In this document: positions 10,622 to 64,000 of the stretch, in pieces
How positions within the stretch are numbered: the stretch's first letter is position 1
How the letters are laid out: the number at the start of each line of letters is the position of its first letter
Assembly (NCBI GenBank): GCA_902984215.1
Contig: CADWAF010002770.1
Coordinates: 1 to 64,000, forward strand
DNA length: 64,000 nt
DNA from: Willaertia magna
Taxonomy: Eukaryota > Heterolobosea > Eutetramitea > Acrasida > Naegleriidae
Reading direction: 5' to 3'
Position numbers and translations under genes: made by a program
Notes under the pieces: generated by a model
Databases searched by the model: none
What the model saw: the letters and a program-made list of their open reading frames with translations, nothing else
Told to the model about the DNA's origin: nothing

Positions 10622-11128
10622 ATGATAAAAGATAAATCCAATAACAATGATAATGAAACAACAACAATAAATCCTAAGGCATTTGTAGAATTTTCAGATG
10701 AATTTATTCAAAAATTAATTCATAAAGCATTAATAAGAGTTGTACCACCTTTATTAGAAGATGAAGATATTGTCAATTATATTATTGATGAATTATTAAC
10801 TATTTGTAATTCAACAAAAGAATCATTCTCAGAATTATCACATTTGGAAGGTGAAAAACAAAAAACATCGTTAACTTCAATTCAAAATGTTTTAACAGAA
10901 CATTTACTTAATTTTAGTTACGCTGATAATGAAGATGATGCAAATGATTTATGTGAAGAATTACAACAATGTTTCCAAGAAATAAGAATAGGTAATACTA
11001 AAAAGTTTGGTATAGATCTAGATAGTGAAGATGATGACGATGGTCAATACGTTGAAGATGGTTGTTGTTTATTATGTGAAAGAGAAATGCCATTGACAAG
11101 ACATCATGTCATACCTAAACATGAATAA
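10622..11128 (+). CDS. PWI-like helical protein ending in a truncated HNH-type zinc motif
   Basis: 168 residues. Residues 20-60 form an amphipathic helical region with a conserved-looking PPLLEDEDIV-NYI stretch that resembles the PWI-like fold of CCDC43-type proteins. After an acidic linker it ends in CLLCEREMPLTRHHVIPKHE, which is the first half of an HNH/zinc-ribbon module: Cys-x2-Cys plus His-His. The second half, which normally carries more Cys and His ligands, is missing. An in-frame stop follows at once, and I found no convincing continuation downstream in other frames. It may be a truncated version of a longer PWI-HNH protein, or an undetected intron may hide the end. The domain names are tentative. 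Confidence 0.6.
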   Translation: MIKDKSNNNDNETTTINPKAFVEFSDEFIQKLIHKALIRVVPPLLEDEDIVNYIIDELLTICNSTKESFSELSHLEGEKQKTSLTSIQNVLTEHLLNFSYADNEDDANDLCEELQQCFQEIRIGNTKKFGIDLDSEDDDDGQYVEDGCCLLCEREMPLTRHHVIPKHE

Positions 11129-11332
11129 ATAATTCACAAGATTGGTTGACAATTAAAAAGAAGTTCTTTCCTGATTTAAAATATTTAATTGGGTGATGAA
11201 AATTTAATTTAGTTTTATTACCAATTTGTTCAATAAGATGCATTTTTTTCTTTGAATTGGACCTGTCTATAATTTAGAGACCTCAGTGACTTGTTGTAAA
11301 ATAATTGTTTTATAAAAATGTACATCAATAAA

Positions 11333-36538: not shown

Positions 36539-39500
36539 ATGAGCTCTTGGTTTGGATTCAATAGATTAGCGGATCCGATTAAAAAACGTATTTTTAAATT
36601 TGTTATAAAGAGGGTTTTAGGTAGATTTATTGTAGAACCTGATTTAAGCCAACTAGATGTACAATTACAATCGGGTAGTTATGAATTAAATAATGTACAA
36701 TTAAAAGTTAAAGAAATTAATGAAACTTTAAAACAAAGTTCCTTTATATTAAGTAGTGGGTATATAGAGAAAATTACCGTAAAAATTCCTTCTTTATTAA
36801 AAATTCTAGATGAATCAATGATATTAGAATTAAGTGGTTTAGAGGTAAAGTTAAAGATGATTAATACTAATTGTCAAAATGAAAATACTCCGATAACAGA
36901 TGGATCCCTTTTATTTCATTCAACGAACTTTTATTCCGATCCTAATATACTTGCTTCTTCATTACTAGTTGGGGATGTCACAAAATCAGATATAGCTTCT
37001 GAATTTTCTGATCTTCAAAAAGAAAGTGATGTAGATTTACAACAAAGCCTTGAGCTACTGAGTAGTTTCATGGAATCCTCACAACATCAACAAAGATCAT
37101 CCGCTAGTGATGAATGTTTTACTGAAGGACATGGAATAATTTCTCAAACAATAGAAAGAGTAATCTCTAATTTAAAAGCTTATGTAAATAATGTAACTAT
37201 TAGATTTGAATTTCCGAAATGTATACAAGATAATACTCAAGAGAATGTACCAAAAAGAAAGAATGTATTTTTACTATTTTTCCCAAGGTTGGAGTACTTA
37301 GATGAAACTCCAATGCCAAAGGTTAATGAGAATTGGTTGCCATCTATTTTTGTTTATTCCTTTTTATTTAAAGGAATATTTGTACAAGTTTTTGAGGAAG
37401 AAGAGATTTGCAATAGCAATAGTAAGAAAGTTAGGTCAATGAATGATAGTTTGAGTGAATTTTCAGATGAATCAGAAGATGAATTGATGTCAAGTAATTT
37501 ATCTACAAATAGTAGTGGTATTGCCTCTAGTTTTATTGTTTCGAATAATACAAGTTCAGGCAATGATTTAAATGAAGGAAATACTATATTTTATGGTGAA
37601 ACTGAGGAAAACAAAATTAAAATAACAATTAAACCAAATAATCTTTCAACAGTGATTGGTGGGAATAATTTATCTAGTTCTTTTATGAATATGGGTTTAC
37701 CACAACAAGAGAGCCCAAGGATTGATGTACAATTTAATATTGCTTCTATACATGCTGTTCTTTCACCAACACAAATGGAAATATTGTTAGATATTTTCCA
37801 GGCCTTAAGTTCAGCAGGAATTTCAGTCAACTCAAAAGAAGATGCACCAAAAGGGAACGAGAAAACAGAAAAAAGAAAAGAACAAAATGATAGAAAGGAG
37901 AAAAAACAAGAAAAAGTTGAACAAAAAGATAAATCATCATCACAAACTAAATTGAGTGAAACAACAGTATTTAAGCTTAATGAGCAAATAAAAAGACAGC
38001 AACAAACGAAAGTCATGGAATCTGGGATGTCTGATAATAGTAAAATAATACACGAATTGGAGAATATCCAGTTCCATAACTTTGAATCAGATGATTTTTC
38101 CAGTGACGATGATTTTAATGAATCGTTTTATTCAACTAAGGATGAACACGATTTTTCAAAGAAGAACAATAGGTCTGCAAATAGTGATAATGAATTAGAA
38201 GATATACAGTTAGACAACAAGAAATCACCTTCTCCAAAAATACGAAAGTACTTTGAAGAAGAATTATTCTCCAGAAAAAATATCAGTCTTAATAACGCAC
38301 TACCAATATGTTTTCACTTAGAGGTGACTTTGAAAGCGGCTACTTTTAATCTACTTTATGAAGATACTGCACAGCTTTCTGAGATGTGGAAGAAATTTAT
38401 TGCCATGCCTTCTTCTTCGAAGAAACAGTTAGGCCCCGTAATACCAAATGTCAGTCATTTATGTGTTCAATGTACCAAAACCCTTACCTTCACTGCAGAT
38501 ATTAATAATGGTGTAAATAATATAAATAATACCTTAGTAGGCGAGGGATACCACAGTGATAGAGACGTCTCAGTTAATGTGGCCATAGGTAAACTAGTAG
38601 TATATGAGAGACTTTGTAACAGTTCTAGCAACAAACAATCCGTTTTTACAGAAATGAAAATATTGGAATTCATCCAAAAGTCATCTAATATGAGCTCGAG
38701 TGGAAATAATGTGACAACAAAAGTTAAACAAGAAGACAGTATGCCCCAAATTAATTACGGGTTTTCTTACAAAAAGAAAGAGAACACGATTTCTCATGTT
38801 CTACGTTTGAAATATTTACTTCAACTTAATGTAGATATGGGACTAATGGAAAGACTTTCCATGTTATTTAAGAGATTTTCTAAATCTACACCAATAGATC
38901 TGCCAAAACCAAAAGATAATGTCATCTCACAGGAACAGGGTAATATTAATATTTTAAAAACCGATTGGAAAACGGACGAAGACCAGTTATTGAAAGATTT
39001 GGATTCAGAAATTGTGCCACCATTAAGGACTATAGTTGATGTAGCAAGTGGAATGGTCAGAATTAATATATTATTTCCAACTTCAGAAGAAAATCCTCAA
39101 CATGTATATGAAAAAAATAGTTTAAAGCTGGAATGTGATGGTATAAAGATAAATGCAAAGTTTAATAGTAGTGGAGAATTGTTAGACACTGGTGCTCATT
39201 TACCAGTTGACACTCACAAGCCAAACTTTGCAAGTATTGTAACCTCATTGCCAATATCGCTGAGAACTACCAGGTTGTATGTTATCAATGAAAGTCACTT
39301 CCCTAAAATAACCCAACCAATGCTTGTAATGAAACCTATGGATATTCACATAACATTAAGAAAATTTTTCTCAGATCTGTCACCAAATAATGACACTTTT
39401 CAATCTTTTGGTCAAGCATCAATGGTATCATCAAATAATGATCGTGTAGATTTATTAACTGATGATGATAGTTCTAGTTCAAGCAGTTCCTTGGATGAGG

Positions 39501-42500
39501 ATAGTGAAGAAAATGAATCTGTAGATGATAATGAAAGTGACTCAAACGATGATGAAAGTGACAAAAATAAGAATGGAAAAGATTTGGAAAATTCAATTAT
39601 TGATGCTATAGATCAAACAGTGTCTGGTGGAAAAACTATACAAAATGCAAGATTATCTATACTTATTGATCCTGTGGAAAAATCCCAACCTGATTTTGAG
39701 CTTGAAGTAACTAAACCTCAATACGAATTATTTATGAAGTTATTAAACAAAGTCACAAATGGTCTTGCAAGACTTGGACGATTAATGGGAGCTAATGAAA
39801 AAGAAACTGAAAAGAAAATTATTACCACATCAACCATTCCAGATATTGCAATCAAATTATCGCTGAATGAATTTTCTATTGCCTTTGTAGAGATTGACTC
39901 AGCATTAATTACTACAAAAAGGAAATTGAAGATTATTTTGAAGAAATTTAGTGCCTTGCTAACCCTATTCTCTAATTGGCCTTCAGAAATGCCAAATACT
40001 ACAACAAGCATGCTTAATACATATATTACCAATGAAGATATAACAGTTGAAGAAGTTTCTTATCGTTCTACCCAGCCAAATACTATATTTAGACCAATTA
40101 TAAGAAGAAACGAACGTATGATCAAAAGCTATAGATCTAGTAAATATTGTACCTCTATATCCTTAAACTTACTAACGCAAAAGGACAACACAACTTCTAA
40201 ACTGATAAAAACAAAACTAAGCACGAATTTACATCTTAGTGGTTTGTACTTTACCTTATTTATTCAACCTTCAGATGATAGCTGGATTTCTTTTATGTCA
40301 AGTTTCTTTGCGTCTGATAGTAAAATGGATGATCCCTTCATAATGAAGGTTCGATTAACTTTACAGGATTGTGCCTTGGATTATATGCCAGTAAATATTC
40401 CTTCTAGAGCCATTGCTCTTTTTGATAAAGTTTGCGTAACCACGAAGTTAAATAACAAAAAGAAGACAGAAGAGCCAACCAAATTGTCAATTTTACTTAA
40501 TGGTGCTTATTTAATGCTGAATAACAATTTCAAGGATGATGTAATGAAATATATGGAAGAAAACATACAAAGAATCCCTGCTAGTGAGTTTGGATTTGTT
40601 AATGATTTAAAACACTTAAATTTTGCTCAAGTTGCCTCAGCAAACACTCTTTTATTTGTTTTCTCCAGCAGAGATAGCATTGGAAATCCAAACTCTACTT
40701 TAGAAGAAGAGAGATTGACTTCTAGATTACCTTTAAAACAATTAGAATTTTCCAGGGGTACTTTGATGATAGATCTATGTTCAGATTCTTTATTAACCTT
40801 CATAGAAATATTAAACTATTTCTTAGATGATGGAGATATTCCTGCTGAAAAGAAAGAAGAGATTAAAAACAAACTTCAACAATCATTAGAAAATAGCGAT
40901 ACTTTGTCTCCAAGAGCCAAATTTGAAGGAACAAATGACAAAAATCCTACACCATTATATGACCCTCTCATCAAGAACCCAACTGATGATTCTATTTATC
41001 AAACAATAGCCTCTGATACTGGAGATTTTATGATTACTGCAAAAAGAACACAGTTCGAAAGAATGGATTTCTTAAATGGAATAGACGATACACAATTTGG
41101 AGAGACTAAACTATTTTCAATCAGTAGTAACCCTTACAATAAGATTAAGTCACCATCGTATTCTAATATTAAAAAGCAAAGCCCTCCAAGAAGTTTACCA
41201 ACTACTTCTCATTCATCTCCATCACTATCTAGCAATAATACCATATACCCCAATCTGTACAATGCCAGTGATGATGAAGAAGTTGGTCTTTACTTCAACA
41301 ATGGAAATGAGAATGAAGAATCGACCCCTGTAATGGAAAAGAGCTTTTCAGGCATTAGCTCTTTTATTAACTTTGACCATTTCCAAGAAAATGAAACTGT
41401 AGACGAAAAGAAAACCAAAAAGAAGGACAAAAAGACATCAAATACTGAAATTAAAAGAGGTTTAAGCAATGCCCAACAAGTAAGGCAAGATGAAGAACAA
41501 GAGGTTAGTGTTAATATTTTAACTAATGGTGTTAGTCAACAAAGTCAATCCAGTTTACTCTCATCCTTCATTCAAAATGACTATTTTCCAAAAATTAATG
41601 AAGAAGATTATGGAATATCTCCTCTTTTACCTGATGAATACCCAACAGCTAATTTTGAAATATTAATTCACAAAGATTTTAACATTGTTGTATATTTATA
41701 TGGAGGTCAAGATTGGGGTCAATCAGAGGAAGAAGATGAGACTAATAGATTGCTTAGTTCCACTACATCCCTCTCAAGCACAACAAGTTATAAAACAAAA
41801 AGTACTAGAGACATGATGAAAGTTGTTCAACTGTCTTTATATGACTTTTATCTTCAATTTTCATGGTTCAAGACTACAATTTCAAAATATGTTTCCAGAA
41901 AACGTATATCCATTCGCGACATAGAAATTTTAGATAAGCTGAAATTATCTAATAGAAACAAATTATTAAAATATTGGGAAACTGAAAAAGATCCTCGTGA
42001 AACTGGAAGCAGAATGTTTGATTTTATTCACGAAATAGTTAGACAAATTCCTTCTATGAATTCCACAACAACAATCCCTCTATCTGATGATTATGAAGAA
42101 GTAAGAATCGATTTAGACATTTTGCCTTTACGCCTCAACTTGCACCAAACCACTTTAGAATTTTTATTGGAATTTATATCGAATCTTGACAAGTCCCCTA
42201 AAGGTGAACTAAAACCTCAACCAGTACCTTCATTAGAACCTCCAAAAGAAAGTAATGAAAAACAAACCTACTTCCAACATGTCAGAGTTAGTCCTTTAAA
42301 GTTGAAAATTGATTATCAACCAGTTAAAATTCATTATGACGCATTACGTGAGAATGTAGTTTCTTATCGTTCATTACTACAAGTGCTTAACTTGATTCCT
42401 TTCAATGGCTCTGAAATTGCTATAAAAGAGATACAATTAAATGGTTTACGTGGCACTGAAGAAGTAATTGCAAATGCTACTTCTTCTATTTTAAGTAATG

Positions 42501-43075
42501 TTGGGGCTACAGATATATTCAAAATACTACTTGGCATAATGCCAATTAAGTCCTTCTATAGCATTGGTTCAGGTGTTGCTGACTTGGTTATTCTTCCTGT
42601 TCAATATTACCAAACAGATGGGCAAGTATTACGTGGATTAAGACATGGACTTTTCTCGTTCATAACCAATCTATCTGTTGGAACTGTACAACTCACAGCC
42701 AATGCTGCAAATACCGTAAATTATGTTGTTGGTTCTGTTGATGGATATTTGACAAACAATAATCCATCTGATGATGAATATTTAGATGAAGATTATGAAT
42801 CAGAAGACTCAAGCCAAAAACAATCGCAAAATCTTCCAACCAACATTAGTGATGCTGTTCAAAAAGCTTACAAAGAACTTTCACAAGGTTTTGGAAATGC
42901 TAAGATGGCAGTTATAGCTATTCCAAAAACTGGGTCTGTTAAAACCTTGCCTCGAGTTTTATTATCACCCCTTGCAGGAATCACAGGTGCTATCTCTAAT
43001 ATCATGGTTGGTTTAAGAAGTGAAATTGACGTTAATTATAAACGTGAAAAAGAAGAATTATTTAAAAATAAGTAA
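36539..43075 (+). CDS. ATG2: Autophagy-related lipid transfer protein ATG2
   Basis: 2178 residues, one exon, the largest gene here. The N-terminus (about 1-110) is the chorein domain shared with VPS13: FGFNRLADPIKKRIFKFVIKRVLGRF followed by the LQSGSYELNNVQLK beta layer. The last about 250 residues are the ATG2 C-terminal region with ILLGIMPIKSFYSIGSGVADLVILPV and the RGLRHGLFSF segment that follow each other in the family. ATG2 moves phospholipids from ER to the growing autophagosome membrane with ATG9 and ATG18/WIPI. Long acidic and Ser-rich insertions make it slightly longer than human ATG2B. Domain order and length fit ATG2, not VPS13. Confidence 0.92.
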   Translation: MSSWFGFNRLADPIKKRIFKFVIKRVLGRFIVEPDLSQLDVQLQSGSYELNNVQLKVKEINETLKQSSFILSSGYIEKITVKIPSLLKILDESMILELSGLEVKLKMINTNCQNENTPITDGSLLFHSTNFYSDPNILASSLLVGDVTKSDIASEFSDLQKESDVDLQQSLELLSSFMESSQHQQRSSASDECFTEGHGIISQTIERVISNLKAYVNNVTIRFEFPKCIQDNTQENVPKRKNVFLLFFPRLEYLDETPMPKVNENWLPSIFVYSFLFKGIFVQVFEEEEICNSNSKKVRSMNDSLSEFSDESEDELMSSNLSTNSSGIASSFIVSNNTSSGNDLNEGNTIFYGETEENKIKITIKPNNLSTVIGGNNLSSSFMNMGLPQQESPRIDVQFNIASIHAVLSPTQMEILLDIFQALSSAGISVNSKEDAPKGNEKTEKRKEQNDRKEKKQEKVEQKDKSSSQTKLSETTVFKLNEQIKRQQQTKVMESGMSDNSKIIHELENIQFHNFESDDFSSDDDFNESFYSTKDEHDFSKKNNRSANSDNELEDIQLDNKKSPSPKIRKYFEEELFSRKNISLNNALPICFHLEVTLKAATFNLLYEDTAQLSEMWKKFIAMPSSSKKQLGPVIPNVSHLCVQCTKTLTFTADINNGVNNINNTLVGEGYHSDRDVSVNVAIGKLVVYERLCNSSSNKQSVFTEMKILEFIQKSSNMSSSGNNVTTKVKQEDSMPQINYGFSYKKKENTISHVLRLKYLLQLNVDMGLMERLSMLFKRFSKSTPIDLPKPKDNVISQEQGNINILKTDWKTDEDQLLKDLDSEIVPPLRTIVDVASGMVRINILFPTSEENPQHVYEKNSLKLECDGIKINAKFNSSGELLDTGAHLPVDTHKPNFASIVTSLPISLRTTRLYVINESHFPKITQPMLVMKPMDIHITLRKFFSDLSPNNDTFQSFGQASMVSSNNDRVDLLTDDDSSSSSSSLDEDSEENESVDDNESDSNDDESDKNKNGKDLENSIIDAIDQTVSGGKTIQNARLSILIDPVEKSQPDFELEVTKPQYELFMKLLNKVTNGLARLGRLMGANEKETEKKIITTSTIPDIAIKLSLNEFSIAFVEIDSALITTKRKLKIILKKFSALLTLFSNWPSEMPNTTTSMLNTYITNEDITVEEVSYRSTQPNTIFRPIIRRNERMIKSYRSSKYCTSISLNLLTQKDNTTSKLIKTKLSTNLHLSGLYFTLFIQPSDDSWISFMSSFFASDSKMDDPFIMKVRLTLQDCALDYMPVNIPSRAIALFDKVCVTTKLNNKKKTEEPTKLSILLNGAYLMLNNNFKDDVMKYMEENIQRIPASEFGFVNDLKHLNFAQVASANTLLFVFSSRDSIGNPNSTLEEERLTSRLPLKQLEFSRGTLMIDLCSDSLLTFIEILNYFLDDGDIPAEKKEEIKNKLQQSLENSDTLSPRAKFEGTNDKNPTPLYDPLIKNPTDDSIYQTIASDTGDFMITAKRTQFERMDFLNGIDDTQFGETKLFSISSNPYNKIKSPSYSNIKKQSPPRSLPTTSHSSPSLSSNNTIYPNLYNASDDEEVGLYFNNGNENEESTPVMEKSFSGISSFINFDHFQENETVDEKKTKKKDKKTSNTEIKRGLSNAQQVRQDEEQEVSVNILTNGVSQQSQSSLLSSFIQNDYFPKINEEDYGISPLLPDEYPTANFEILIHKDFNIVVYLYGGQDWGQSEEEDETNRLLSSTTSLSSTTSYKTKSTRDMMKVVQLSLYDFYLQFSWFKTTISKYVSRKRISIRDIEILDKLKLSNRNKLLKYWETEKDPRETGSRMFDFIHEIVRQIPSMNSTTTIPLSDDYEEVRIDLDILPLRLNLHQTTLEFLLEFISNLDKSPKGELKPQPVPSLEPPKESNEKQTYFQHVRVSPLKLKIDYQPVKIHYDALRENVVSYRSLLQVLNLIPFNGSEIAIKEIQLNGLRGTEEVIANATSSILSNVGATDIFKILLGIMPIKSFYSIGSGVADLVILPVQYYQTDGQVLRGLRHGLFSFITNLSVGTVQLTANAANTVNYVVGSVDGYLTNNNPSDDEYLDEDYESEDSSQKQSQNLPTNISDAVQKAYKELSQGFGNAKMAVIAIPKTGSVKTLPRVLLSPLAGITGAISNIMVGLRSEIDVNYKREKEELFKNK

Positions 43076-50283: not shown

Positions 50284-51366
50284 ATGTTAAAAAAAAATAT
50301 GGATGACTCAAAGACTGTGCCACCTTTAACTTCACCAGAGCAGACTGGTTCAAACACCATACATGATGATGCAAACAAAATCTTATCTCCAGAAACAACG
50401 GTTTCAAGTATTAACCTACTGAGTCCGAGTGCTGATAACATGGAAGAAACTCCGTTTGACAATGATAAAGTCAACTCATCTTTTTCAAGTACCACAAAGT
50501 CTCTTGCTATTAGTATTCCAGGAGAGACTGTTTCTGACAAAATTGAGTGTCATTTGTATGATTCACCAAGGACTCGTCTGGAAGATGTAATTCAATCTAA
50601 ATTTTACAAAATATTTTCAAATTCAATGTATATAATACTAGATATTTGTTTTTTTATAGGAGCGTCAATGTTTATTGCTGGATGTACATGTTTTGCTGTG
50701 GATTCAACAAATCTATTTAATTGTGGAAGTTATAACTTTTTAATTGGTTCAATTTTATTTCTGATAGGTCCAATTTGTAAAATATTTGTAGATATTTATA
50801 ATTTAATTAATCACAGAAGATATTGTAAAAAACTTGAACAAATACGAAATAATTCGTCAACTAGCGCATTATTACCATTAGCGGCTTATAAACAAAGAGA
50901 AAAAGCATCCAAACTACAATTACAATTAATTATTACAGAATATTTTGTAGATTTCCTTTTATGTATAGGTGGATCGACATTTATCACTGGTTCTGTTTTA
51001 TTTATGAATTTACCATCTACCTTTACTAAAGTTATATCAGCTGAGATAGTTTGGATGGTTGGAGCTTGTGCATTTCTTTTATCAAGCATAATACAATTAT
51101 TTATGAAATTAAATTCAATAGTTTACAATAGTAAAAATTATATGGATAAGAAATTTATACAATCAATAATGTTTTACATAGATGTTGGTTCATTTATCTT
51201 AAATATTATAAGTAGTGTTTTGTTTGTTGCTGGTTCAGGTTGTTTCTTAGTAAATTATAGACCTGTAGAAATTGTGGGGCATGTAATGTGGAGTTCAGGT
51301 TGTCTTGCCATGAATATTGCTATCCTTAGTTCTAGAACTGTTTGGTTTTATGAATTATTAAAATAA
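50284..51366 (+). CDS. Multi-pass membrane protein with three similar two-helix units
   Basis: 360 residues. The ATG at 50284 or the next one at 50299 starts it. A Ser/Thr-rich cytosolic tail of about 105 residues precedes six membrane segments in three pairs. Each pair reads like [IG]-x-[FIL]-x-x-G-[ST]-x-x-[FI] followed by G-x-x-x-F/L-I-x-[GS] and a short loop. The pairing and Gly/Ser pattern recalls the YrhK-like domain repeated three times. The repeat claim is by eye. The function is unknown; a channel or stress membrane protein is possible. Confidence 0.7.
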   Translation: MLKKNMDDSKTVPPLTSPEQTGSNTIHDDANKILSPETTVSSINLLSPSADNMEETPFDNDKVNSSFSSTTKSLAISIPGETVSDKIECHLYDSPRTRLEDVIQSKFYKIFSNSMYIILDICFFIGASMFIAGCTCFAVDSTNLFNCGSYNFLIGSILFLIGPICKIFVDIYNLINHRRYCKKLEQIRNNSSTSALLPLAAYKQREKASKLQLQLIITEYFVDFLLCIGGSTFITGSVLFMNLPSTFTKVISAEIVWMVGACAFLLSSIIQLFMKLNSIVYNSKNYMDKKFIQSIMFYIDVGSFILNIISSVLFVAGSGCFLVNYRPVEIVGHVMWSSGCLAMNIAILSSRTVWFYELLK

Positions 51367-52051: not shown

Positions 52052-54647
52052 ATGAGTAACAAAGGAAGAGATGCCATCCTTAGATGGTGCCAACGTAATA
52101 GTTTCGGATATGATAATGTAGATATTTCAAATTTTGATACATCTTTTGCAGATGGCTTAGCTTTCTGTTGTCTTTTAGATAGTGTAAGTAAGATCATCTC
52201 AGTATTAATTATTTACATTGCATTAATATTTTTCAATCAATTGGATTGCAGCAACGTCCTGATTTGTTAAAAGAAACTGGATTAACTTGGGATGACCTTG
52301 TTAATGATTTTACAAGAGAAGAAAGACTTGAATGGGCTTTCAGTAAAGGTGATGAAATTGGTATTCCAAGATTATTAGACCCAGAAGATGTAGATTCTAA
52401 AAAACCAGATCCAAAAGTTATAATCACATATCTTAGTGGAATGATTAAATTCTTCCAAGAAGAAGACAATAACTCATCATCAAATAATATTGAGAAATCA
52501 ACCGGTTCTTTTGCTGCTTCTATTGAAGACTTAATTAATGGAAGTAAATCAACTACGACTACGAAGCCTAAAACAAATGCAACTACAACGAATGCAACAA
52601 CAAAGAAGCAATCCAATACTCCAACAACAAAGACAGTTCCAACCTTAACAACCAATAAATCTCCAGTACAAAATAATAATCATGGTGTACAACCTTCTCC
52701 TAGAAAGGATATTCCAATTGAAAAACAATTAGAAGTAAGTACTTTTATAATAATGTTAATAATTTAAATTATTAGAATTTGGAAAGAATGTTCCAGAAAG
52801 GCTTATTGGCTCAAGATGCTTATGAAAAGGCTAGAAATAAAATCTTAGAAAAGATGAATACTCCAAGAGATAACAACAGTAATAATAATACTCCATCATC
52901 AAACTCTTCAAACAATATTGAATTAGATGAAAAAACTCAAAAACAATTACAAAGCTTACAAAAATTATTTGAAAGAGGTACTATCTCTGAAGAAGATTAT
53001 AAGAAAGCAGTTGAAAAGGCTAAAAGTAAAGCAACAAGTGGAAATATTCCAGTTGTTGAAGATGTTGTAAGCAGTAAGACAAACTCAAATAATTCTTCGA
53101 CTAATTCTACACCAAGATCAACCACCTCTTCAACATCTTCTAATCAAAATGTTATGGATGATATTGATGAATCTACTTTAACACCAGAACAAAAGAAACA
53201 ATTGGATAGTTACAAGAAAATGATGACTATGGGAATTTTATCAAAGGAAGAATTCCAAAAAGCTGTTGTTAAATTAACGGAAAAGAAGAGTACTGCACCA
53301 ACAAATAGTGGTGATAAATTATCTCACTTGAAGAATTTGAGAGACAGAGGGGTTATAAATGAGGAAGAATATCAAAAAGCTGTCAAGAAATACGACACAT
53401 CAAATAATTCTACACCAAGTACAACAACTTCTAATACAACGACACCTGTCACCAATAGTGGCGAAATTAATGTAGATGATATTAAAGAAGAAGACTTAGA
53501 TGAAAAGACAAAAGGTAGATTGAAGGCAATTGACAGAATGTATAAATGCGGATTATTTAAAGAAGAAGAATATATACATTCAAGAAGAAAGATTATTATG
53601 CAAGGTTTACAAGAATCTGGCAAGAATGCAGGAACAACTACTCCAAAAGAAGAACCAAAAGAAGAAAAAGTGGTTGGACCACCAAAAGTTGAGGTTCAAG
53701 AGGTAGAAGAAGAAGTGGAAGAGGAAGAAGAAAAAGAAGAACCAAAAGTAGAAGAAAAAGTAGTTGAACCACCAAAAGTTGAGGTTGAAGATGAAGAACA
53801 AGCACCATTGACCAAAACTCAATCATTTAGTGAAAGAATTGGTTTCTTCCAAAAAGTTAATGACCTCAGCCAAAAGAAGCAACGAAAGCCTTCTGTTAGA
53901 GTTACTAATTTAAAAGATAGAATGAACGTATTTGAAAAGAAGAATGATGACACCAGTAGCAATAATTCTCCTAAACAATCAACTCAACTTAATAAGATTA
54001 ATAAAAAACAAGATATTGCAGTTGTAGAACCAGAGGAAGAAGAAAATTTAGAAGAAGAACACGAAGAAGAATATCATCAACCACAAGAAGAACAACAAGA
54101 GGAAGAAAATGTTGAAGAAGAAGAACACAAAGAAGAAACAAAATCCAACGTCCCAACCATTACAATGTATGAAGAAGAAGAGGAAGATGTCAAGCCAAAA
54201 CATGTTCACAATCCAAAATACTTTTATCCTTCTTCAGATGACGAAGACCAACAGTATGTACCAAAGAAAAGATCTGGAAGCGTATTCTTAGACCAGCCAA
54301 ATTTACCACAAAAGATGAGTGCAGGATTAGAAGATTATAAGATTTTATACGATAAATTGTTAAAAGAACATCAAGAATTAGCTGAAGATTATGACGAACT
54401 AGCTGATGAATATGATGAATTAAAAGAACAATTAGCTGTAGTATATCAAGGCCAAGTACAACAAGCACCTGTTGTGCAAAAGAAGGATGACTTGGAGATT
54501 CCAGAAGAGTTGAAACCAATAATTAAGAAACTAATAATGAGACAAAAGCAATCCTTAGGCAAGTCATTTGATGTATTAGTAATATATCCAAATGAAGACA
54601 GTCGTGGCAATCAAGTCCTCATGCAAGATAAAGTCACATTGAAATAA
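52052..54647 (+). CDS. Calponin-homology protein with five SHOCT-like repeats and a coiled coil
   Basis: Exons 52052-52183, 52252-52734 and 52776-54647 (introns 68 and 41 nt, GTAAGT, both phase 0) give 828 residues. Residues 1-125 form a CH domain (ILRWCQRN, FADGLAFCCLLDS, GIPRLLDPEDV, KVIITYLSGM), an actin-binding type fold. Five copies of a 26-30 residue unit follow at about 206-231, 263-289, 347-375, 387-411 and 453-482. Each has L-x-x-[LM]-[YFR]-x-x-G-x-[LI]-x-x-E-[ED]-[YF]-x-[KR]-A-x-x-K, the pattern of the SHOCT domain. Then come acidic Glu-rich tracts and a Glu/Asp/Leu coiled coil near 710-755. I infer an actin- or cytoskeleton-linked multimeric adaptor. Confidence 0.85.
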
Positions 54648-54781: not shown

Positions 54782-57700
54782 ATGCAGGACTTTTCCCATC
54801 AACTCTATTCTGTCTTCCTAAATACCTTCAGTACCAATAAATCCTTGCAACAAGTCTCTGAACAACAATTAACTCAATGGAAAAGTAACGAAGGATTTCC
54901 TAGTTCAATTTTACAATTAATTTTAACTAGTCAACAATCTAACGCAGTAGAAGCACTTCATATCCAACAAGCCGGAGCTATCTACTTAAAAAATTTAGTC
55001 AATAAACATTGGAATCCTAAAAGAAGAAGTTTAATAGAAGAAGCGGAAGAAGAGGAAGAACAACAACAAGATGGAGTAGTTTTTGAAATGGCTCTCTCCG
55101 ATAAGAATTATTTAAAAACCAATATTTTACAGGCCTTAGTTCAATCTAAACATGTAATTCAAAATCAATTATGTGATGTTCTTAGAGTGATGGTTTATAA
55201 TGATTATCCTGTTAGTTGGAATAATTTAGTAGATGACATTTTACAATTATTACAATCTAATGATATTAGTAAAGTTTATGGAGCTTTATTAGCATTAGAC
55301 CAACTATTGAAGAGTTATAAATTTGCATTTGGAGAACAATATAAAATGGTTGTAGATGATGTTGTCACAAGAACAAGTGATGTTATTTTAAATTTATTTA
55401 AATATTTACTTTCTCAAAACACAGATGAATTTGCATTTATGAGAAAATTAGCATGTAAAGTTATTTGGGCTGGATTTTATCTTGGTATTCCACAATATTA
55501 TAGTTTAGAAATTTTAAACAATTCACAATTCAGTAGATTTGATCAATTAATGCAATTATTAATTGATTCATTTAAGATGGATGTTCCACAAGGAAATAAT
55601 TTTGAAAATCAAGGTAATCCACATTGGAAAGTAAAGAAATGGATTGGTCATTTCATTTATAGATTAATTGCTCAATTTAATACAATTGATGCTAAAGAAC
55701 CAACTGAAGAAGAACGTAAATTAGCAAAATATTTCTTACAAAAGTGGGCTATTCCATTTTTAGAAGTAATGGTATCTGTTGTTCAATTAAATTTAAAGAA
55801 TATATTTGTTCCACCTAGAATCATTACTTTAGCTTTACGTGTTTTAGATGGTTGTACTTCAGAACCAAATATTTATAATATTGCAATCAAACCTAAATTA
55901 AAAGATATTATTACAAATATCTTATTCCCTTATATTTGTTTTAATCAATATGATAAAGAAACATGGGAAAATGATCCACAAGAGTTTTTAAGAATTGGTT
56001 ATGAAATGATTGAAGATTTATGGAATACAAGAATTACTGCAATGGGTTCATTATTTAATTTAATTGCTGAAAGAAGAAAGGATGTATTTCCAGTTTATTT
56101 AGCATATGTCACTGAGGTATTAACTAATTATCAAAATGGTACAAATGTTAATCCTTCTTTAAAAGATGGTGTTTTATATTCAATAGGTAATTTAGCATCT
56201 ATTTTTGTAAAGAGTAACATGACAAAAGATAAGATTGAAGATTTATTAACAATGTTTGTTTTCCCTGAATTTACTAATAATCAATATCCTTATTTAAGAG
56301 CAAGAGCATGTTGGTTATTAGGTATCTTTTCATTAATCAATTGGAAGAATGAAAATACACCAATCGAAGGATTGAAATTAATTTTAAATTGTTTACAAGA
56401 TAAAGATATTCCAGTTAAAATTCAAGCAGGTTTAGCATTAAGTTGTTTATTACACACAGATATAGCAATGCAACAAGTTAGACCAATCTTGCCACAATTA
56501 TTAGAGATTTATATGAATATCTTGAATGAAATGGAACATTCTACAGTTGTTGAAAGTATTGAGAAATTAATTGATGCATTTGCAGAAGATATTGAACCAT
56601 ATGCTATTTCAATTTGTTCTAGAATGATATCTACGTTTATTAGATTACAAGAAGAAGAAGAAGATGCAGATTTAGATCACGTAGAAGAAGAAACTTTAAT
56701 GGAAAATTGTATTCTTACAGTTTTAACTTTAATGAGAGCATTTACTTCTAAACCATCAATTTATAGACAATTAGAACCTATTCTATTACCTTTCATTGCT
56801 AAAGTATTAGAAAGTCCAGAAGTTGGTTATGATTTCATTGAATATGTTATGGAAATGTTAACATTCTTAACTTATCATTGTGAAGGTAAAATTAGTGAAA
56901 ATTGTTGGAAAATGTTACCAATTGTTTATGAAGCATTCAAAGGATGGGCAAGTGATTATATTGGTTATTTAGTTCCACCAATGGATAATTATATTTCTGT
57001 TAATACAGATGTATTCTTACAAAATCAAGATCATGTCACAATGGTTTATGAATTATGTAAAGTACATTTAGGTGCTGATGCACAAACATGTGAAAAAGAA
57101 GCACAAGGTGCATGCAAGATATTGTCTGTTATGTTACAACGTTGTAAAGGTAGAATTGATAATGAAGTTCCAAAATATTTAGAAATGGCATTAGAACAAT
57201 TAAAACTTGCTGAAACACCTGCATTTACAGTTTTACTTTTCGATCTATTTGCAGATGCTATTTGTTATAACATTGATATTACTTTAAATTATATTGAATC
57301 AAAACAAGCAACATTCTCAGTATTTGGTAAATGGTCAAATGCCTTCACTCTAATGCACAGAATATTTGATAAGAAGTTAACTGTTTTAGCTTTCTCTACA
57401 ATTATTGGTTATCCTAATTTTGCAAATTTACCTTCTCCTATTCAAGGAAATATTACTCATCTAGTTGGTTCTTGTGTTAAATTATTAATTGATATTCATC
57501 AACAACGAAAGGTAGAAGAGGAAAATAAATTAAAAGCTGAACAAGAAAGAAAAGAACTATTAGAGAATTATTATGATAGTGAAGAAGAAGAATATAATAG
57601 AGAAGATAATAATGGAGGTAGTGCTACTTTATCAACCTTAAAGAAGAATCCTCAATTATTAAAGTTAGCTGAAAGTCTTACAAATACGTCTTATGATAAT

Positions 57701-57901
57701 CAAGCAAATGATGAAGAGATTGATGATACTGAAACAATAGAAACTGTTTATGATAGTATTGATGAAAATGTCTATTTTGGTCAATCAATTATTTCTTTCT
57801 CCAACAGATATCAAAGTCAATTCCAACAAATTATTTCACAACTTGGAGATGAGGAAAAATTAGCTTTACAACAATTAATGAATAGTGCAAATCAACAATA
57901 A
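54782..57901 (+). CDS. IPO7: Importin-7/8 family karyopherin
   Basis: 1039 residues, one exon. N-terminal importin-beta repeat with VSEQQLTQWKSNEGFPSSILQLIL and IQQAGAIYLKNLVNKHW, then about twenty HEAT-like helical pairs. An acidic patch near 920-1000 (EEEEYNRED, DEEIDDTETIETVYDS) lies next to the C-terminus. Length and layout fit importin-7/8 (yeast Nmd5/Sxm1), which import ribosomal proteins, histones and signalling kinases. Start context AAAAAAAAATG. Importin-7 and importin-8 cannot be told apart here. Confidence 0.92.
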   Translation: MQDFSHQLYSVFLNTFSTNKSLQQVSEQQLTQWKSNEGFPSSILQLILTSQQSNAVEALHIQQAGAIYLKNLVNKHWNPKRRSLIEEAEEEEEQQQDGVVFEMALSDKNYLKTNILQALVQSKHVIQNQLCDVLRVMVYNDYPVSWNNLVDDILQLLQSNDISKVYGALLALDQLLKSYKFAFGEQYKMVVDDVVTRTSDVILNLFKYLLSQNTDEFAFMRKLACKVIWAGFYLGIPQYYSLEILNNSQFSRFDQLMQLLIDSFKMDVPQGNNFENQGNPHWKVKKWIGHFIYRLIAQFNTIDAKEPTEEERKLAKYFLQKWAIPFLEVMVSVVQLNLKNIFVPPRIITLALRVLDGCTSEPNIYNIAIKPKLKDIITNILFPYICFNQYDKETWENDPQEFLRIGYEMIEDLWNTRITAMGSLFNLIAERRKDVFPVYLAYVTEVLTNYQNGTNVNPSLKDGVLYSIGNLASIFVKSNMTKDKIEDLLTMFVFPEFTNNQYPYLRARACWLLGIFSLINWKNENTPIEGLKLILNCLQDKDIPVKIQAGLALSCLLHTDIAMQQVRPILPQLLEIYMNILNEMEHSTVVESIEKLIDAFAEDIEPYAISICSRMISTFIRLQEEEEDADLDHVEEETLMENCILTVLTLMRAFTSKPSIYRQLEPILLPFIAKVLESPEVGYDFIEYVMEMLTFLTYHCEGKISENCWKMLPIVYEAFKGWASDYIGYLVPPMDNYISVNTDVFLQNQDHVTMVYELCKVHLGADAQTCEKEAQGACKILSVMLQRCKGRIDNEVPKYLEMALEQLKLAETPAFTVLLFDLFADAICYNIDITLNYIESKQATFSVFGKWSNAFTLMHRIFDKKLTVLAFSTIIGYPNFANLPSPIQGNITHLVGSCVKLLIDIHQQRKVEEENKLKAEQERKELLENYYDSEEEEYNREDNNGGSATLSTLKKNPQLLKLAESLTNTSYDNQANDEEIDDTETIETVYDSIDENVYFGQSIISFSNRYQSQFQQIISQLGDEEKLALQQLMNSANQQ

Positions 57902-58011: not shown

Positions 58012-58771
58012 TTAAATTAATATGCCAAAATATCCACATTCTTTACAAGACATGGAAAGAAAAGTTGAACCAAACTTTTGTTCAGAATTAATTGTTGGTT
58101 CTTTGTCACATTGTTGTTTATGTTCAACAAAGTTGTCAATTAAATTTTGGGAAACATCTGAAGCACTTAATCCATCATACTGTAATAAAGTAAATAAAGG
58201 GTTAGAGAAATTAATTAAAAAACAAAACAAAACAAACTTTGGTGGGTATTCTTAAGCCACATTTACAAAATAGTGAGTGTTTTGTTTCCAGTAATCTGTT
58301 TTTCTTACAAATTGGACAAAGAAATACTGACTTTTCAAAATAATCAATTAATTCTTGTAAATCTTCACTTTCAATCTTTTCATTTTCTTCAAATTCTTTT
58401 AATAAAAGTTCTTCCTCTTCTTTCTTTATTTCTTCTTCAATTTCATTTCCTATTTCAATTAATAAATCCATATATTCATCTTCATCCATATTTCCTTTCT
58501 CTTGTATTAATAATCTTTCTAATTCTTCTTTGCATTCTTTCGTATACTTTTCAAATAATTCAGCACAAACATCTTTTTCATGTTCTCTGATTGATTCTAA
58601 AAGTTTTTGTCTTTTCTCTTTCACATTTTCAAAAGCTCTTCTTCTAATAACATCTTTATAAAAAGATCTTTGTTCTTTTATTGATGATGGTCTATCTTTT
58701 AATTTATGTGAATTAAAAAACATAAAAGCTTGTTCCGATGGTTTGTTGTTGTCATTGTCGTTTGGAATCAT
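58012..58771 (-). CDS. RPAIN: RPA-interacting protein (RPAIN)
   Basis: Exons 58238-58771 and 58012-58179 with a 58-nt intron (GTTTGT donor, CAG acceptor, phase 0) give 233 residues, near human RPAIN (219). The first exon alone would end in a wrong tail. Features: an N-terminal helical region with KEQRSFYKDVIRRRAFENVKEKR, an acidic Glu-rich middle, and a zinc module of CPIC, CKCG and, after the splice, HKQQCDK and SCKECG. In animals it brings RPA into the nucleus. Its 3' end faces importin-7/8. Confidence 0.88.
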
Positions 58772-58813: not shown

Positions 58814-61800
58814 TTACATTACAATACAGCAACAACAACCTTGTTCAACTTGTCGTTGTTGTAACATCATTCTTAAATTAGCAACGTTTTCTCTTGCTGT
58901 TATTGTCTTATCATGATTGTCACCATAAAATTCAGCAAAGATACGTTCACATGTTGCAAAATTAAGAATTGCATCTTCAATCTTTTGTAATTGTACACGA
59001 CATGCACCTAAATCATTAATAAGTTCACCATATTCTAAATTATTATCATTTCCAGTCTTTTTTAATACAAGTTGTTCTACTTCTTCAAATACTTTTTCAG
59101 CTGATTCAAAATCTTTTGGATCTCGTTTCGTGTGACAACTTGCAATCGCTTTCTTTACAGTAATTATTTTATCTAATTCATTAGGAGATACTTCTTTTAA
59201 TAAATCTAAAACCTTATTATAATATTCAATTGCTGGTTCATACTTAGCTTGACGATCCAAACAAACTGCTAATGCTTGGAATGTGGCAATAAAGTTCTCT
59301 TTTGGTTGTTGTTGTTTTGTTTTCATCTCAATAACTTTAAGATAAATTGCTTCAGCACCAGATAAATCCTTCTTATTTAATTTTGCATTTGCTGAAAGAG
59401 ATAAAAAGTTTGAATAAAGAGGATATGCTGCACCACCAAGTTTAGTATCAATAATCTCCATTCCTCTATCTAAAAGTTCTGAAGCTTCTTTATATTGTTG
59501 TTTATCATAATGTAATGTAGCCATACCATATAATATTCTTGCTGTTTCACCCAAAATGTCAAGATAATCAGTACTTTCAGGATTGGTGGTCTTTTTAACT
59601 TCTTCTAAAACGGCCATTGATTGTTCATATAATTCAATTGCCTTGTCATAATTTTGTTTTTGTCTTTGTGTGTCAGCCATAGAGGCAAGGGTTGAGGCCA
59701 TTTGTCTACCTTTTTCACCTTTAATTTCTTCATCTTGTAAAGATTCTAGAGCTTCTTCAAATGACTTTTGAATTTCATCAATATCAGAATTTGTTTCTAA
59801 TTTTAATTTGGCAACATTAGTTTTCAAAGTGGCAACACGACTGTCATTAGGACCATAAAGATTAGTTAAAATAGTCATTGATGAAGTATAATGTTCTGAT
59901 GCCTCTTCATATTTCTTTAAATGTTTCAAACAAATAGCCAAGTTATTGTGAGTAGATGAAACTGTTAAATCTGATTCTCCAAAATACTTTTTACGTATCT
60001 CCAATGACTTTTTAAAATTAACTTCAGCTTCTTTAAATTTTTGTTGTAAAAGTAGCGCAATAGCATAACCATCATATATTTCTCCCATTTGGAAGGAAGT
60101 TTCACCAAATATTTTAGCGTTAATTTCAACTGCCTCTTTGTAATATTTAATAACATCGTCATAATATTTACTATTTTTAAGATCTCTTAATAATGAGGCA
60201 TAGGATGCAAGGGCATCAGAAATCAATGGATGATAACGGTGATATATTCTTTGTAAAATCATTAAACCACGTTCGAAATATTGTTTACCAAGTTTGGTTT
60301 CGCCACGGTGCATATAAATTCTTGCTTGATTAATCATAGCTTTTCCAATAAATATATCTTTAATGATATATTCATCTTTTTCAAACCCTTCAAGGACTTC
60401 TTCATTTGATTCAATTTTTAATTTTTGCCATTCATGTGCGTTTTTAGTGGCAATGTCAACCATCTTTTCAAAATATTTCATAGCAATATCATGTTGATTT
60501 TGACGTAAGGCAATGTCACCAGTAATGTGAAGCACTGGTAGTTTCTTTAACTCATCACTCGGTTCTTCACTAAGGATACAAGCATTTTCCAATAATTCGA
60601 GTGCCTTTTTAGCTTTAATAAAAGCATTCTTGTGGTCCATTAAATCAAAATACACTAAAGCAAATCCCTCATAAAATTGAGCTTTTCCAAACTCACTCTT
60701 CACTTTATCGATAGCTGCATTATTTTCAAAATATGTATACATTCTACCTCTGTCAATCGCATAAATAACATTTCTAAATATGTATCTACCGTTGTTTAAA
60801 CCGTCTATGTAATCTTCATCAGATAAATCCCTTAAGAAATGAATTACTTGTTTCATATTTTCAATATCCATATCATATCTTTCCACACCAGGCATAAACA
60901 TGATACCACTGTATTCATGTTGTAAATTATAGAGACCTAAGAGGTTATAGTAATGTTGAGTGTATCTTTCGTCACATTCTTGAACTGCAACCTTTACAGG
61001 GTCATCATCAGGCATTTCTTCACAATGATAAACCAACGTGTCACGAACTAAATCATGATAACAAAATCTATTAGGTTCACATCCAATAAGAAGACCCATA
61101 AAAACCAATAATTGAATATGTTGTAAGGTTTCATGAAGAGGTGTCTCTGTAATTAAACTTGCACTAACAACATCAAATGAGAATGGGAAAATTGATAATT
61201 TCAATGCAAAGCTTTGTAATTCTTTTGGCCACTTTTGGAAGGCTCCAATTATAAAGCCTTCACATAATTTTCTTAATTGAGGGAAGTTTGGTTTGGTATG
61301 TTCATCAATATAAGAACTGACATGAATAGAATAATCAGAGAGTGTGTGATCACTAACGTATAACATATGACATCTTGTTGCAATTTTCATGAAAATAGGG
61401 ATATTATCTGCAAGTGCAGCTAAAGATCTACCCTCTTCCATTGTTACAGAAGGATTTAATGATAAAATCATTTCTGAACCCTGATCTAATGTTAATGTCT
61501 CTAATTGACAATAAATAACATCAAATTGTCTTTGGAAAATTGGTAATTTCTCATCATCATCCTTAGTTCCAATGTGAATACTAACAGTTTTCTTTTGTGT
61601 ACTACCAAAGATTGCCTTCAACTCTTTTTCCATTTTCTTTTGATGTGGAGTTTTCTTAATGTGGAATTTGCCTACAGCATTAACAGGAGAAGTTGGTACG
61701 TCTTCTTCTTTGTCACTTTCATTATCACTATCATCATCTGATGAGCCAAAATCAGATTCATGATCAGAGAAATTCTCCAAATCAATTTGATCAATTGCTA

Positions 61801-62981
61801 TTGATCCCCCTTCTATTGAAGTTTTATCTTCCTCTGGAATACGATCTCTTACTTGTTTAATTTCGTCTTCATTTACTAAGTCTATGTAACCCTTAGAAAA
61901 ACGATCAAAATCTAATTTAAGGGAAGAACGTGAACTAATAACTACAATAGCTTTACTTGATGGTGAGTATTTAATATAAGGTAATAAGGCTAAAACTTGA
62001 TGAATATTTGCTGGATCTTCTAAATATAATAAAGAAGATACCCCAATAAAAGATTGATGATAAACATCTCTTAATTGTTTCTCGTGAATAGGAAGTGGTT
62101 GTCCTCTCCATGTTTGAATGACATATTGCATTGCCTCCGTTGTCTAAACATTATTATTTAGCGCCATTATTATTATATTTTAAAAAAATAAAACTTACAG
62201 TTAAGCTTTGTTTTGTGTTTGCCCTTAATCTTAGATGATACTTTCTTTGGATTTGATTTTCTTTACATATTTCTCTACATAAATGTAAAGCAAAATTACT
62301 TTTACCAACACCTGTTACTCCATTTACTAAGATTACTTTTAAACGTTGTTGAGCTGCTTTTGCTAAACTGTCAAAAGCGTTTGTACTGGTTGATAAGGCA
62401 GCCTGTTCTTTTTGATTTTCCATTGCCAATAACACTTTCTTAAGCATGGATGATCTTCCTCCGAATGACTCATGACCAACCAGATGAAAAGTTCTGGGAT
62501 CATTAGTCAATTCTTCAGGTAACATGACACCACTCACTGCAGATTTAGGATAATATTTAGCATGAGCATCAAATTGAAATGTTGCTTTTCCATTAGAACC
62601 TTGAGCAGCTTCTTCATTTGCTCTTTCCGTTGACACTTGAATTGCATTGATTTTGGCAATAATTTTCTGTATCAATTCTTTTTCTTCTCTTTCAAAAAGA
62701 TAATCGTTTTGTGCATCTTCTTTTCGTTGAAATTGTGGGTCGTTTTGTAAGTTACTGATTAGAAAGTTGGCCGCATCTACTAAAGCTTTAATGACATTAT
62801 CCAAAGAAGATGAAGAAATAGAAGAAACAAAGGAATTTGAAGAAGGAATTTGCTTATAAAGTTGCACTTGTTGATATATAGATAGAATAAATTCGCACAA
62901 AGAAGTAGTGTAAACTTTACTTTGTGAAATGTCCAGAGCATATTCACTTAGTTTATCAATTATGCTGTGTAATTCTTCCAT
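58814..62981 (-). CDS. NLR-like STAND NTPase with TPR repeats and C-terminal CaaX motif
   Basis: Exons 62199-62981 and 58814-62143 (55-nt GTAAGT...TAG intron, phase 0) give 1370 residues. The first 215 residues are helical and unrecognised. Walker A is G221-V-T-G-V-G-K227-S228. Past the splice are a Walker-B-like LLYLED, a sensor segment VVISSRS and a winged-helix-like stretch ending FCYHDLVRDTL, close to the MHD motif of NB-ARC proteins. A Ser/Asp-rich insert lies inside the NTPase. From about residue 700 at least ten TPRs follow, several like kinesin light chain (FKEAEVNFKKSLEI, YEEASEHYTSSMTI). The end is GCCCCIVM: CIVM is a CaaX box, and Met favours farnesylation. I infer a membrane-anchored sensor; the trigger is unknown. 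Confidence 0.85.
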
Positions 62982-63137: not shown

Positions 63138-64000
63138 TTAATTAACAATTGGTACTGCAAAAGCACACTCAGTTTGAATTGCTAAATTGTAGAATTCTGT
63201 TCCAACAACAATTCTGAAAAATCCGCCTTCACCCCATTCAGTTCCCTGCAGATTTACAAGAAATTATTTTAGTAAATAATTAAATTTTAACTTACCCATG
63301 AATTTCTTACAATCCAATACTAAAATAATAATGAAAAAGATTATAAAAATTATTGTAAATTGTCATTAATCAATTATTACTTACTTTTTGTCCATTTTCT
63401 TCACCCCAACCAACAACAGAAATGATGTGATTAATCATTGGGAAAACAGAAAATTCAGAGAAAATACCTCCAGTATATTTTTCTAATTTGCTTGTTGCAT
63501 CAATTCCACAACTAATAGGACCACGTGCATAAATTTCAGCTTTCATTTCATGTTCACCACTAATTGATCCAAACTCACTTACTTTCCATCTCTTAAAGTT
63601 AGTAATTGGCCAACAAGATGTTGTATTACAAGTACCGCATTCAGAAAAAGCAGTACAATCTTCATCCTTTGCTTTATAGACATTACAACCTTCCTCTGGA
63701 ATACCCTTCCTTTTAATAGTTCAAAATAATATTCGCAATGTCAGTAATTGTCATGTGAAAATTTACTTACTTTTGTGCATAATAATAAACTGGAGAATCA
63801 TCACCACCTTCACAACTACCAGCTAAAATAATTTAAATGTAAATTAAAAAATATTAAAATTTTACTAACCATCTCCACAAGCAATGACGTGTTGAACACT
63901 TAATTCAATTCTTGGCCATTGATTTTTTCTCATGATATTAATTCTGTCAGCTAATGCAGAAGTAGATCCATGAGCCCAACAACTACCACAATATTGTGGA
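63138..64000 (-). CDS. CTSZ: Cathepsin Z/X-like papain-family peptidase, C-terminal part
   Basis: The 5' end lies beyond the window. Exons on the minus strand: 63870-64000 (partial), 63771-63822, 63385-63709, 63296-63319 and 63138-63245; introns of 47, 61, 65 and 50 nt. Joined, they give 213 residues: [22 protein letters not shown] with the catalytic Cys, CGDAGSCEGG, a cathepsin-Z-type CGTCN region, [17 protein letters not shown] with the catalytic His, [21 protein letters not shown] with the Asn, and an [10 protein letters not shown] end. The NHI-to-NSW and GSCEGG features match cathepsin Z, a lysosomal carboxypeptidase. It is the most intron-rich gene here; one exon has only 24 nt. Confidence 0.95.

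Follow-up and report, generated by a model that had tools for sequence, protein, structure and literature searches.

A putative STAND/NB-ARC switch with a TPR array and a conserved CaaX tail in the amoeba Willaertia magna

Plant immunity and animal apoptosis both depend centrally on NB-ARC nucleotide-binding switches, yet the roles of such switches in protists have, to our knowledge, hardly been tested. The known systems nearest to the gene discussed here are bacterial and archaeal STAND proteins in which an NB-ARC core is combined with tetratricopeptide repeats (TPRs), such as the TPR proteins of FxSxx-COOH systems (fxsT) and NCBIfam HaaT. NB-ARC-TPR proteins are also known in fungi (PMC4986451) and in Acanthamoeba and Ectocarpus (PMC4053784), and two homologues, named among 18 leucine-rich repeat (LRR)-containing proteins, are described from transcripts of the amoeba Willaertia magna (PMC7285305), perhaps not including the present gene. 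The latter lies in a 64,000-nucleotide stretch of W. magna DNA (contig CADWAF010002770.1, positions 1 to 64,000; “the window” below) and encodes a protein with a putative NB-ARC core, a TPR array, and a C-terminal CaaX motif. An initial annotation of the window considered it a candidate for an undescribed system, which is too strong in view of the homologues reported in W. magna and Acanthamoeba: the NB-ARC-TPR pairing is already known, and it is the conserved prenylation signal that is the new part of the protein.

Joining the two exons (62981..62199 to 62143..58814) gives 1370 residues and a single terminal stop, a product identical to W. magna ABK040_006712 (P0001); 12 GT-AG joins are possible, and the one chosen has consensus ends. 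Two relatives were found among 5.8 billion proteins searched with residues 150-760: Naegleria fowleri FDP41_009508 (P0002; 1393 residues, 63% identity), the one sequence examined from the four-sequence cluster it represents, and a metagenome protein of 1100 residues (P0003) that begins just past the intron site. A second search with an alignment of the three, sensitive to relatives with common short exact words, returned the same three proteins from at least 7982 candidates scored. In the W. magna genome (19.2 Mb, 894 contigs), the exon-2 protein has a single match, its own gene. By source taxonomy the species belongs to the Naegleriidae within the Heterolobosea, a lineage distant from plants, animals, and fungi.

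TPR array and putative NB-ARC core

Family profiles leave no doubt about the TPR array (Pfam TPR_12: 172.8 bits, 1.6e-51, eight stretches), and among solved structures in the PDB the exon-2 protein is closest in sequence to kinesin light chain TPRs. Upstream of it, a P-loop, an acidic Walker B, an RNBS-B Arg, a GxP-like element, and an MHD-like element are all present in NB-ARC order, giving the expected succession of core and TPR array provided that the core is indeed NB-ARC. The initial annotation had pointed out the Walker A motif, ISSRS, the YHDLVRDT element, the TPRs, and the C-terminal CIVM, and each is where it was placed. The P-loop Lys-Ser is kept in both members of the family that cover it, and the acidic Walker B, the SSR Arg, and the MHD His and Asp in all three; where W. 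magna reads YHD, both relatives have an exact MHD, FSMHDL(V/L)R. The GxP Gly is replaced in W. magna (NIPIF; NLPI in the relatives).

Several comparisons bear on these motifs. Taken as an ordered chain with spacing limits, the five motif blocks following the P-loop score 25.3 on the three-row alignment, against a null of 4.1 ± 4.7, a value reached by none of 1000 column shuffles, with limits that were fixed only after the motif places had been seen. Unguided MAFFT alignment with NB-ARC cut-outs (four bacterial rows inspected) puts the P-loop, Walker B, RNBS-B, and MHD in register in all four modes, and GxP in two. With hhalign, the match to six bacterial rows (probability 21, E 0.0011) becomes probability 46 and E 2e-4 against 123 NB-ARC-TPR cut-outs (of 126, three being dropped for length; most came from 120 of 3406 matches), with GxP and MHD both in register and a score of 39.4 against a null of 17.0 ± 2.8 (maximum 24.7, n=100). 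Against 80 loci, out of 163 relatives in bacterial and archaeal genomes, it is probability 60 and E 8.5e-5, in an alignment running from the GR motif through RNBS-B.

A likeness to bacterial proteins is also seen from the TPR side. By tblastn, P0002 matches 40 of 72,556 plasmid records; the best 30 of the 40 matches, four of which are annotated as fxsT, fall within its TPR part (residues 759-1383). Four plasmid TPR proteins were scanned with Pfam: the three annotated as fxsT have NB-ARC above the cut-off followed by TPRs, and for the fourth the scan did not show NB-ARC. NCBIfam HaaT matches P0002 best over the winged-helix/MHD region (whole protein 32.8 bits, far under the cut-off of 1125). 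In the final alignment of 61 rows (the three family members and 58 of the 80 loci, picked by length), the MHD His is the sole invariant column; the 58 bacterial and archaeal rows are 15-19% identical to the W. magna protein over the aligned cut from the nucleotide-binding (NB) domain to the winged-helix domain (WHD).

Structure prediction adds some support. An AlphaFold model built with NB-ARC rows in the alignment matches NRC1, Apaf-1, and MalT (Foldseek, and VIA, a re-examination of the Foldseek matches), and no NACHT protein is named in the best 50 rows of the match list, with which a NACHT fold would still be compatible. The absence of a P-loop NTPase/winged-helix fold, which would have spoken against the initial annotation, was thus not encountered, and an NB-ARC fold for the core is supported by a model. 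A model from the three-row alignment (residues 1-830), which reached a predicted local distance difference test (pLDDT) of 33.5 and a predicted TM-score (pTM) of 0.22, was discarded for the fold search.

A number of results weigh against an NB-ARC core. PF00931 is absent among the best 25 of 26 Pfam families for the 1370-residue protein, and among the matches listed the other P-loop families (nSTAND3, NACHT) are weak and below cut-off. A hidden Markov model of the 123 cut-outs gives the three proteins 3.8, 2.3, and -1.4 bits, where the best of 1000 shuffles has 8.0. The hhalign signal comes mostly from near the P-loop: the post-P-loop part alone scores 18.3, inside its null of 16.3 ± 2.6, and against the 80 loci 23.7, a value computed without a null, and the extended 80-locus alignment has MHD in register but GxP out of it. 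Within the motif chain, Walker B and GxP contribute just -2.2 and 0.1 bits; when single sequences are scored without spacing limits, 19, 16, and 1 of 1000 shuffles reach the score, and Walker B and GxP are put elsewhere in P0002 and P0003. In MAFFT runs with full-length bacterial proteins, the P-loop and RNBS-B stay in register but GxP and MHD are lost in three of three runs, and for this reason NB-ARC cut-outs alone were used in the final alignment. To the low confidence of the three-row model may be added that the better one relies on the NB-ARC rows, that 190 of its 545 residues have pLDDT <50, that the root-mean-square deviations in VIA are 4.5-5.4 Å (best seven rows), and that no Foldseek TM-score to the query exceeds 0.42 (best 50 rows).

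A rival reading is a degenerate P-loop scaffold, in which switching has been lost and the TPRs and lipid tail act as an adaptor or in trafficking, for instance as a cargo platform of the kinesin-light-chain kind. The structural relatives of the TPRs fit this, as do an NB domain too diverged for NB-ARC profiles and the charged variable stretch that interrupts it (residues 367-430), which has no counterpart at that place in six aligned bacterial rows. Against it stand the retained P-loop, Walker B, SSR, and MHD residues, and the fact that, when W. magna and N. fowleri are compared over 12 segments, residues 262-366 of the NB domain come out as the most conserved (80%; 76-80% with the two relatives). 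Loss of switching is therefore considered quite improbable. A STAND/NB-ARC switch with a TPR array, as the initial annotation had it, is supported by the motif chain, TPR_12, the HaaT stretch, the 61-row alignment, and the model matches.

The N-terminal region is harder to place. Residues 1-155 are probably helical, judging from the model; no Pfam family is above cut-off there, and a PDB profile search gave two weak matches (best E 0.54) and no relative. Identity to N. fowleri, the sole relative compared, is 45%. By eye, it may bear some likeness to HeLo/MLKL-type four-helix bundles.

The C-terminal CaaX tail

The gene ends in the codons GGT TGT TGT TGC TGT ATT GTA ATG TAA, and thus in CIVM; P0002 and P0003 both end in GCPCLIL. 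A CaaX motif is accordingly found at the exact C-terminus of all three proteins, CIVM once and CLIL twice, and the search for orthologues, which could have turned up members with other ends, turned up none. The window has 36 stop-to-stop frames that reach 150 codons or more, and that of this gene is the only one with even a relaxed CaaX end. What is not conserved is the run of four Cys, which the initial annotation had treated as a feature of the tail: the relatives have one extra Cys, two residues upstream of the CaaX Cys (CPC), and the run, seen in Willaertia alone among the three, may reflect a TGT repeat.

Could the ending be incidental, and the tail unmodified? The family is small, with three proteins found, and the modification is a prediction. 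From composition, however, C[VIL][VIL]X at the C-terminus has a chance probability of about 6e-4 for the W. magna protein and 4e-4 to 6e-4 per protein, the three being kin and not independent draws; moreover, all three keep the motif with differing residues, each time as CaaL/I/M. An incidental ending is thus regarded as very improbable, and we predict from the motif that Cys1367 is prenylated.

The type of lipid is another matter. CaaL/I/M ends, to which both CIVM and CLIL belong, are the subset targeted by geranylgeranyltransferase I (GGTase-I); farnesyltransferase takes CaaX generally, and some ends are used by both, according to PMC11152559. GGTase-I beta is encoded in the W. magna genome, the sole prenyltransferase beta subunit found there with PF00432, in a search that misses intron-split genes. 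Farnesyltransferase beta was not found in the same search; because Rab GGTase beta was missed too, the search or assembly being incomplete, this is uninformative, and a farnesyltransferase gene is reported for N. fowleri (PMC7560193). Farnesylation specifically, as first proposed from the Met end, is therefore not established, since the relatives end in Leu and CaaL/I/M fits GGTase-I: the lipid could be of either prenyl class. S-acylation of the Cys neighboring the CaaX motif is something we infer. Since the tail is kept in both relatives, a lipid-anchored switch looks real on these sequences.

Possible mechanism and alternative roles

Taking these results together, our preferred reading, to which we would give a probability of roughly 0.58, is that the protein is a STAND switch of the NB-ARC type, which senses through its C-terminal TPRs and is membrane-anchored by CaaX prenylation, with the neighboring Cys probably acylated. 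For nucleotide switching, oligomerization, prenylation in the cell, and the site and signal of action, we infer the following. At rest, ADP would be held in a closed core of NB, helical, and winged-helix domains; the MHD His would sit at the nucleotide, and the TPR arm would lie against the core. Binding of a ligand or partner protein by the TPRs would cause ADP to be swapped for ATP; the opened core may then oligomerize at the surface of the membrane and so gather the N-terminal regions, which would signal, at a site and by a signal that are conjectural. PH0952 and MalT, STANDs with TPR sensors, are described as ADP-closed at rest via NOD-sensor contacts and as multimerizing when induced (PMC6468293). 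By analogy, the W. magna protein should rest closed with ADP and multimerize upon induction, at the membrane.

A more specific version, which we hold to be unlikely, is that a heterolobosean STAND oligomer forms on a prenyl-anchored platform, with the sensor end (the C-terminus) held at the membrane and the N-terminal domains gathered there by activation. Plant resistosomes contact the membrane via their N-termini, and this layout would be the opposite. If it were true, lipid anchoring of NB-ARC proteins would have arisen in a lineage distant from plants and animals, and the last residue, Met or Leu, would tune lipid and site.

What might such a switch detect? The initial annotation had suggested an NLR-like sensor. 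On an immune reading, this would be a receptor at the plasma or phagosome membrane, recognizing microbial products through its TPRs and setting off defense or cell death. The architecture is shared with fungal and bacterial NB-ARC-TPR proteins, such proteins are discussed as pattern-recognition receptors in W. magna (PMC7285305) and Acanthamoeba (PMC4053784), and W. magna eliminates Legionella (PMC7285305). Other observations do not fit so well. The exon-2 protein has the single genomic match mentioned above, and four NB-ARC-profile matches in the genome, read by eye, are ORC1, GET3, an ABC transporter, and a GPN GTPase, none of them NB-ARC; the STAND-TPR gene of the window was itself absent from these matches, so that paralogues could have been missed as well. 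The TPRs show no sign, in three sequences, of evolving faster than the NB/WHD core: between W. magna and the two relatives, TPR segments are 60-71% identical, inside the 51-80% range of post-P-loop NB/WHD segments (51-56% for residues 463-550, 57-63% for the WHD). Agreement of the TPR units with a regular repeat of 42 residues is weak, whereas near-identical, variable repeats are described as frequent in fungal NLRs (PMC4986451). The conservation of the TPRs suggests a fixed partner and speaks against a diversifying immune receptor, in both cases weakly, with three sequences compared. An immune role thus stands unproven and is considered doubtful, if still a serious candidate; for the lipid-anchored switch, a conserved endogenous or guarded partner is favored over direct recognition of variable microbes.

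A different comparison is with nephrocystin-3 (NPHP3), a lipid-modified STAND-TPR protein that carries an N-myristate and has an N-terminal region, a P-loop NTPase, and TPRs. The W. magna protein might be a ciliary or flagellar protein of this kind, with a prenyl anchor replacing the myristate. The broad domain order is alike, Pfam TPR_NPHP3 matches are present, an UNC119-like lipid-cargo carrier gene (identity by eye) is in the genome, and W. magna has a flagellate stage (PMC7285305). The TPR_NPHP3 matches, however, score 42.9-66.1 bits, below the cut-off of 100, and four bacterial TPR proteins score 139-430, so that the match is generic; NPHP3_N has no genome match above cut-off (14 are below); and residue 2 is Glu in W. 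magna (MEEL) and Ile in P0002 (MIDD), not the Gly of an N-myristoylation signal. On these grounds identity with nephrocystin-3 was rejected, and a role of the same kind is considered highly unlikely. The carrier gene, of the UNC119/PDE-delta family (PF05351; at least three exons), is on W. magna contig C29 at about 11036-11595.

For the preferred lipid-anchored switch, the gene offers a defined case for studying the function of NB-ARC-TPR proteins beyond large immune repertoires, and for learning whether anchoring by a lipid can stand in for other ways of reaching a membrane. A prenylated tail would also make the protein one defined substrate of the prenylation pathway, inhibitors of which are under study against Naegleria (PMC7560193).

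Feature positions, neighboring genes, and known systems

Table 1. Positions in the window of the features of the STAND-TPR gene and its predicted product.
Feature	Position	Strand	Basis
Exon 1 (residues 1-261)	62199..62981	minus	open frame; matches deposited protein exactly
N-terminal region, residues 1-155, candidate effector/adaptor domain	62517..62981	minus	helices in model with pLDDT 33.5
SFGGR, counterpart of F.GR motif 5' of P-loop in bacterial NB-ARC-TPR proteins	62454..62468	minus	hhalign
Walker A/P-loop GVTGVGKS (221-228)	62298..62321	minus	aligns to GLGG(I/V)GKT, 4/4 MAFFT modes
GT-AG intron, 55 nt, GTAAGT...TTTAG, inside NB domain	62144..62198	minus	spliced frames
Exon 2 (residues 262-1370 and stop)	58814..62143	minus	open frame
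Putative Walker B SLLYLEDP (298-305)	62012..62035	minus	MAFFT placement; -2.2 bits in motif chain
Putative RNBS-B/sensor-1 strand IVVISSRSS (327-335)	61922..61948	minus	MAFFT; motif chain 11.0 bits
Variable stretch, acidic core (residues 367-430; 17 D/E, 6 K/R of 64)	61637..61828	minus	segment comparison
RNBS-C-like LETLTLDQGSEMI (475-487)	61466..61504	minus	motif chain 7.1 bits
GxP (GLPL)-like ADNIPIFMKIA (506-516)	61379..61411	minus	in register in 2/4 MAFFT modes; 0.1 bits
MHD-like FCYHDLVRDT (621-630), end of predicted WHD	61037..61066	minus	motif chain 9.2 bits
TPR array (about residues 761-1350)	58877..60646	minus	TPR_12; kinesin light chain TPR matches in PDB
GCCCCIVM (1363-1370), CaaX CIVM (1367-1370), Cys1367 = CaaX Cys	58817..58840	minus	sequence, alignment

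Immediately 3' of the STAND-TPR gene is a small RPA-interacting-protein homologue (58211-58771, minus; RPA_interact_N and _C slightly above cut-off), and facing it on the opposite strand is an Importin-beta family protein (54782-57901, plus; IBN_N, Cse1). On its other side is a partial intron-containing gene (63140-64000, minus), by eye a papain-family (cathepsin-type) protease. Elsewhere in the window, a 1372-residue frame (32093-36211, minus) combines Pkinase (680-958, 138 bits) with a C-terminal HECT domain (1057-1371, 151 bits) and is worth a look, and a 2178-residue open frame (36539-43075, plus) matches the autophagy protein ATG2 (317 bits). A 360-residue protein (50284-51366, plus) has three stretches like YrhK (PF14145, 68 bits), a bacterial family, making lateral transfer possible. 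A 622-residue frame (52779-54647, plus) has a SHOCT domain (52 bits), best known in prokaryotes.

Among solved STAND structures, PH0952 (PDB 6mfv) and MalT (8bob) resemble the amoeba protein in having TPR-type sensors, yet are prokaryotic; we know of no lipid tail in either. MalT is described as acting in transcription, unlike the membrane-anchor reading of the amoeba protein. Apaf-1 and the plant NRC NLRs have WD40 and LRR sensors, respectively, in place of TPRs, and their membrane contact is by other means. In nephrocystin-3, the lipid signal is at the N-terminus, whereas that of the amoeba protein is at the C-terminus.

For the NB-ARC-TPR proteins described in fungi, Acanthamoeba, and Ectocarpus, the passages available mention no CaaX tail, a comparison of text rather than of sequences. 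The fungal NLR paper (PMC4986451) has no occurrence of “caax” or “prenyl”, and the W. magna paper (PMC7285305) none of “farnesyl” or “prenyl”. No prenylated or CaaX-bearing NLR or NB-ARC protein came up in the literature searched (titles, starts of abstracts, and some passages), where the closest link is to the isoprenylated HMA proteins of plants, whose HMA domain is of a type that can be integrated in immune receptors (PMC12835825). Closest overall are still the bacterial and archaeal NB-ARC-TPR STANDs, with which the amoeba protein shares, in equal order, F.GR, P-loop, Walker B, TSR, GLPL, a winged helix with (M/I/V/L)H, and TPRs, as far as its diverged motifs can be matched; unlike them, it has a charged variable stretch, an unrelated N-terminus, an intron in its gene, and a CaaX tail.

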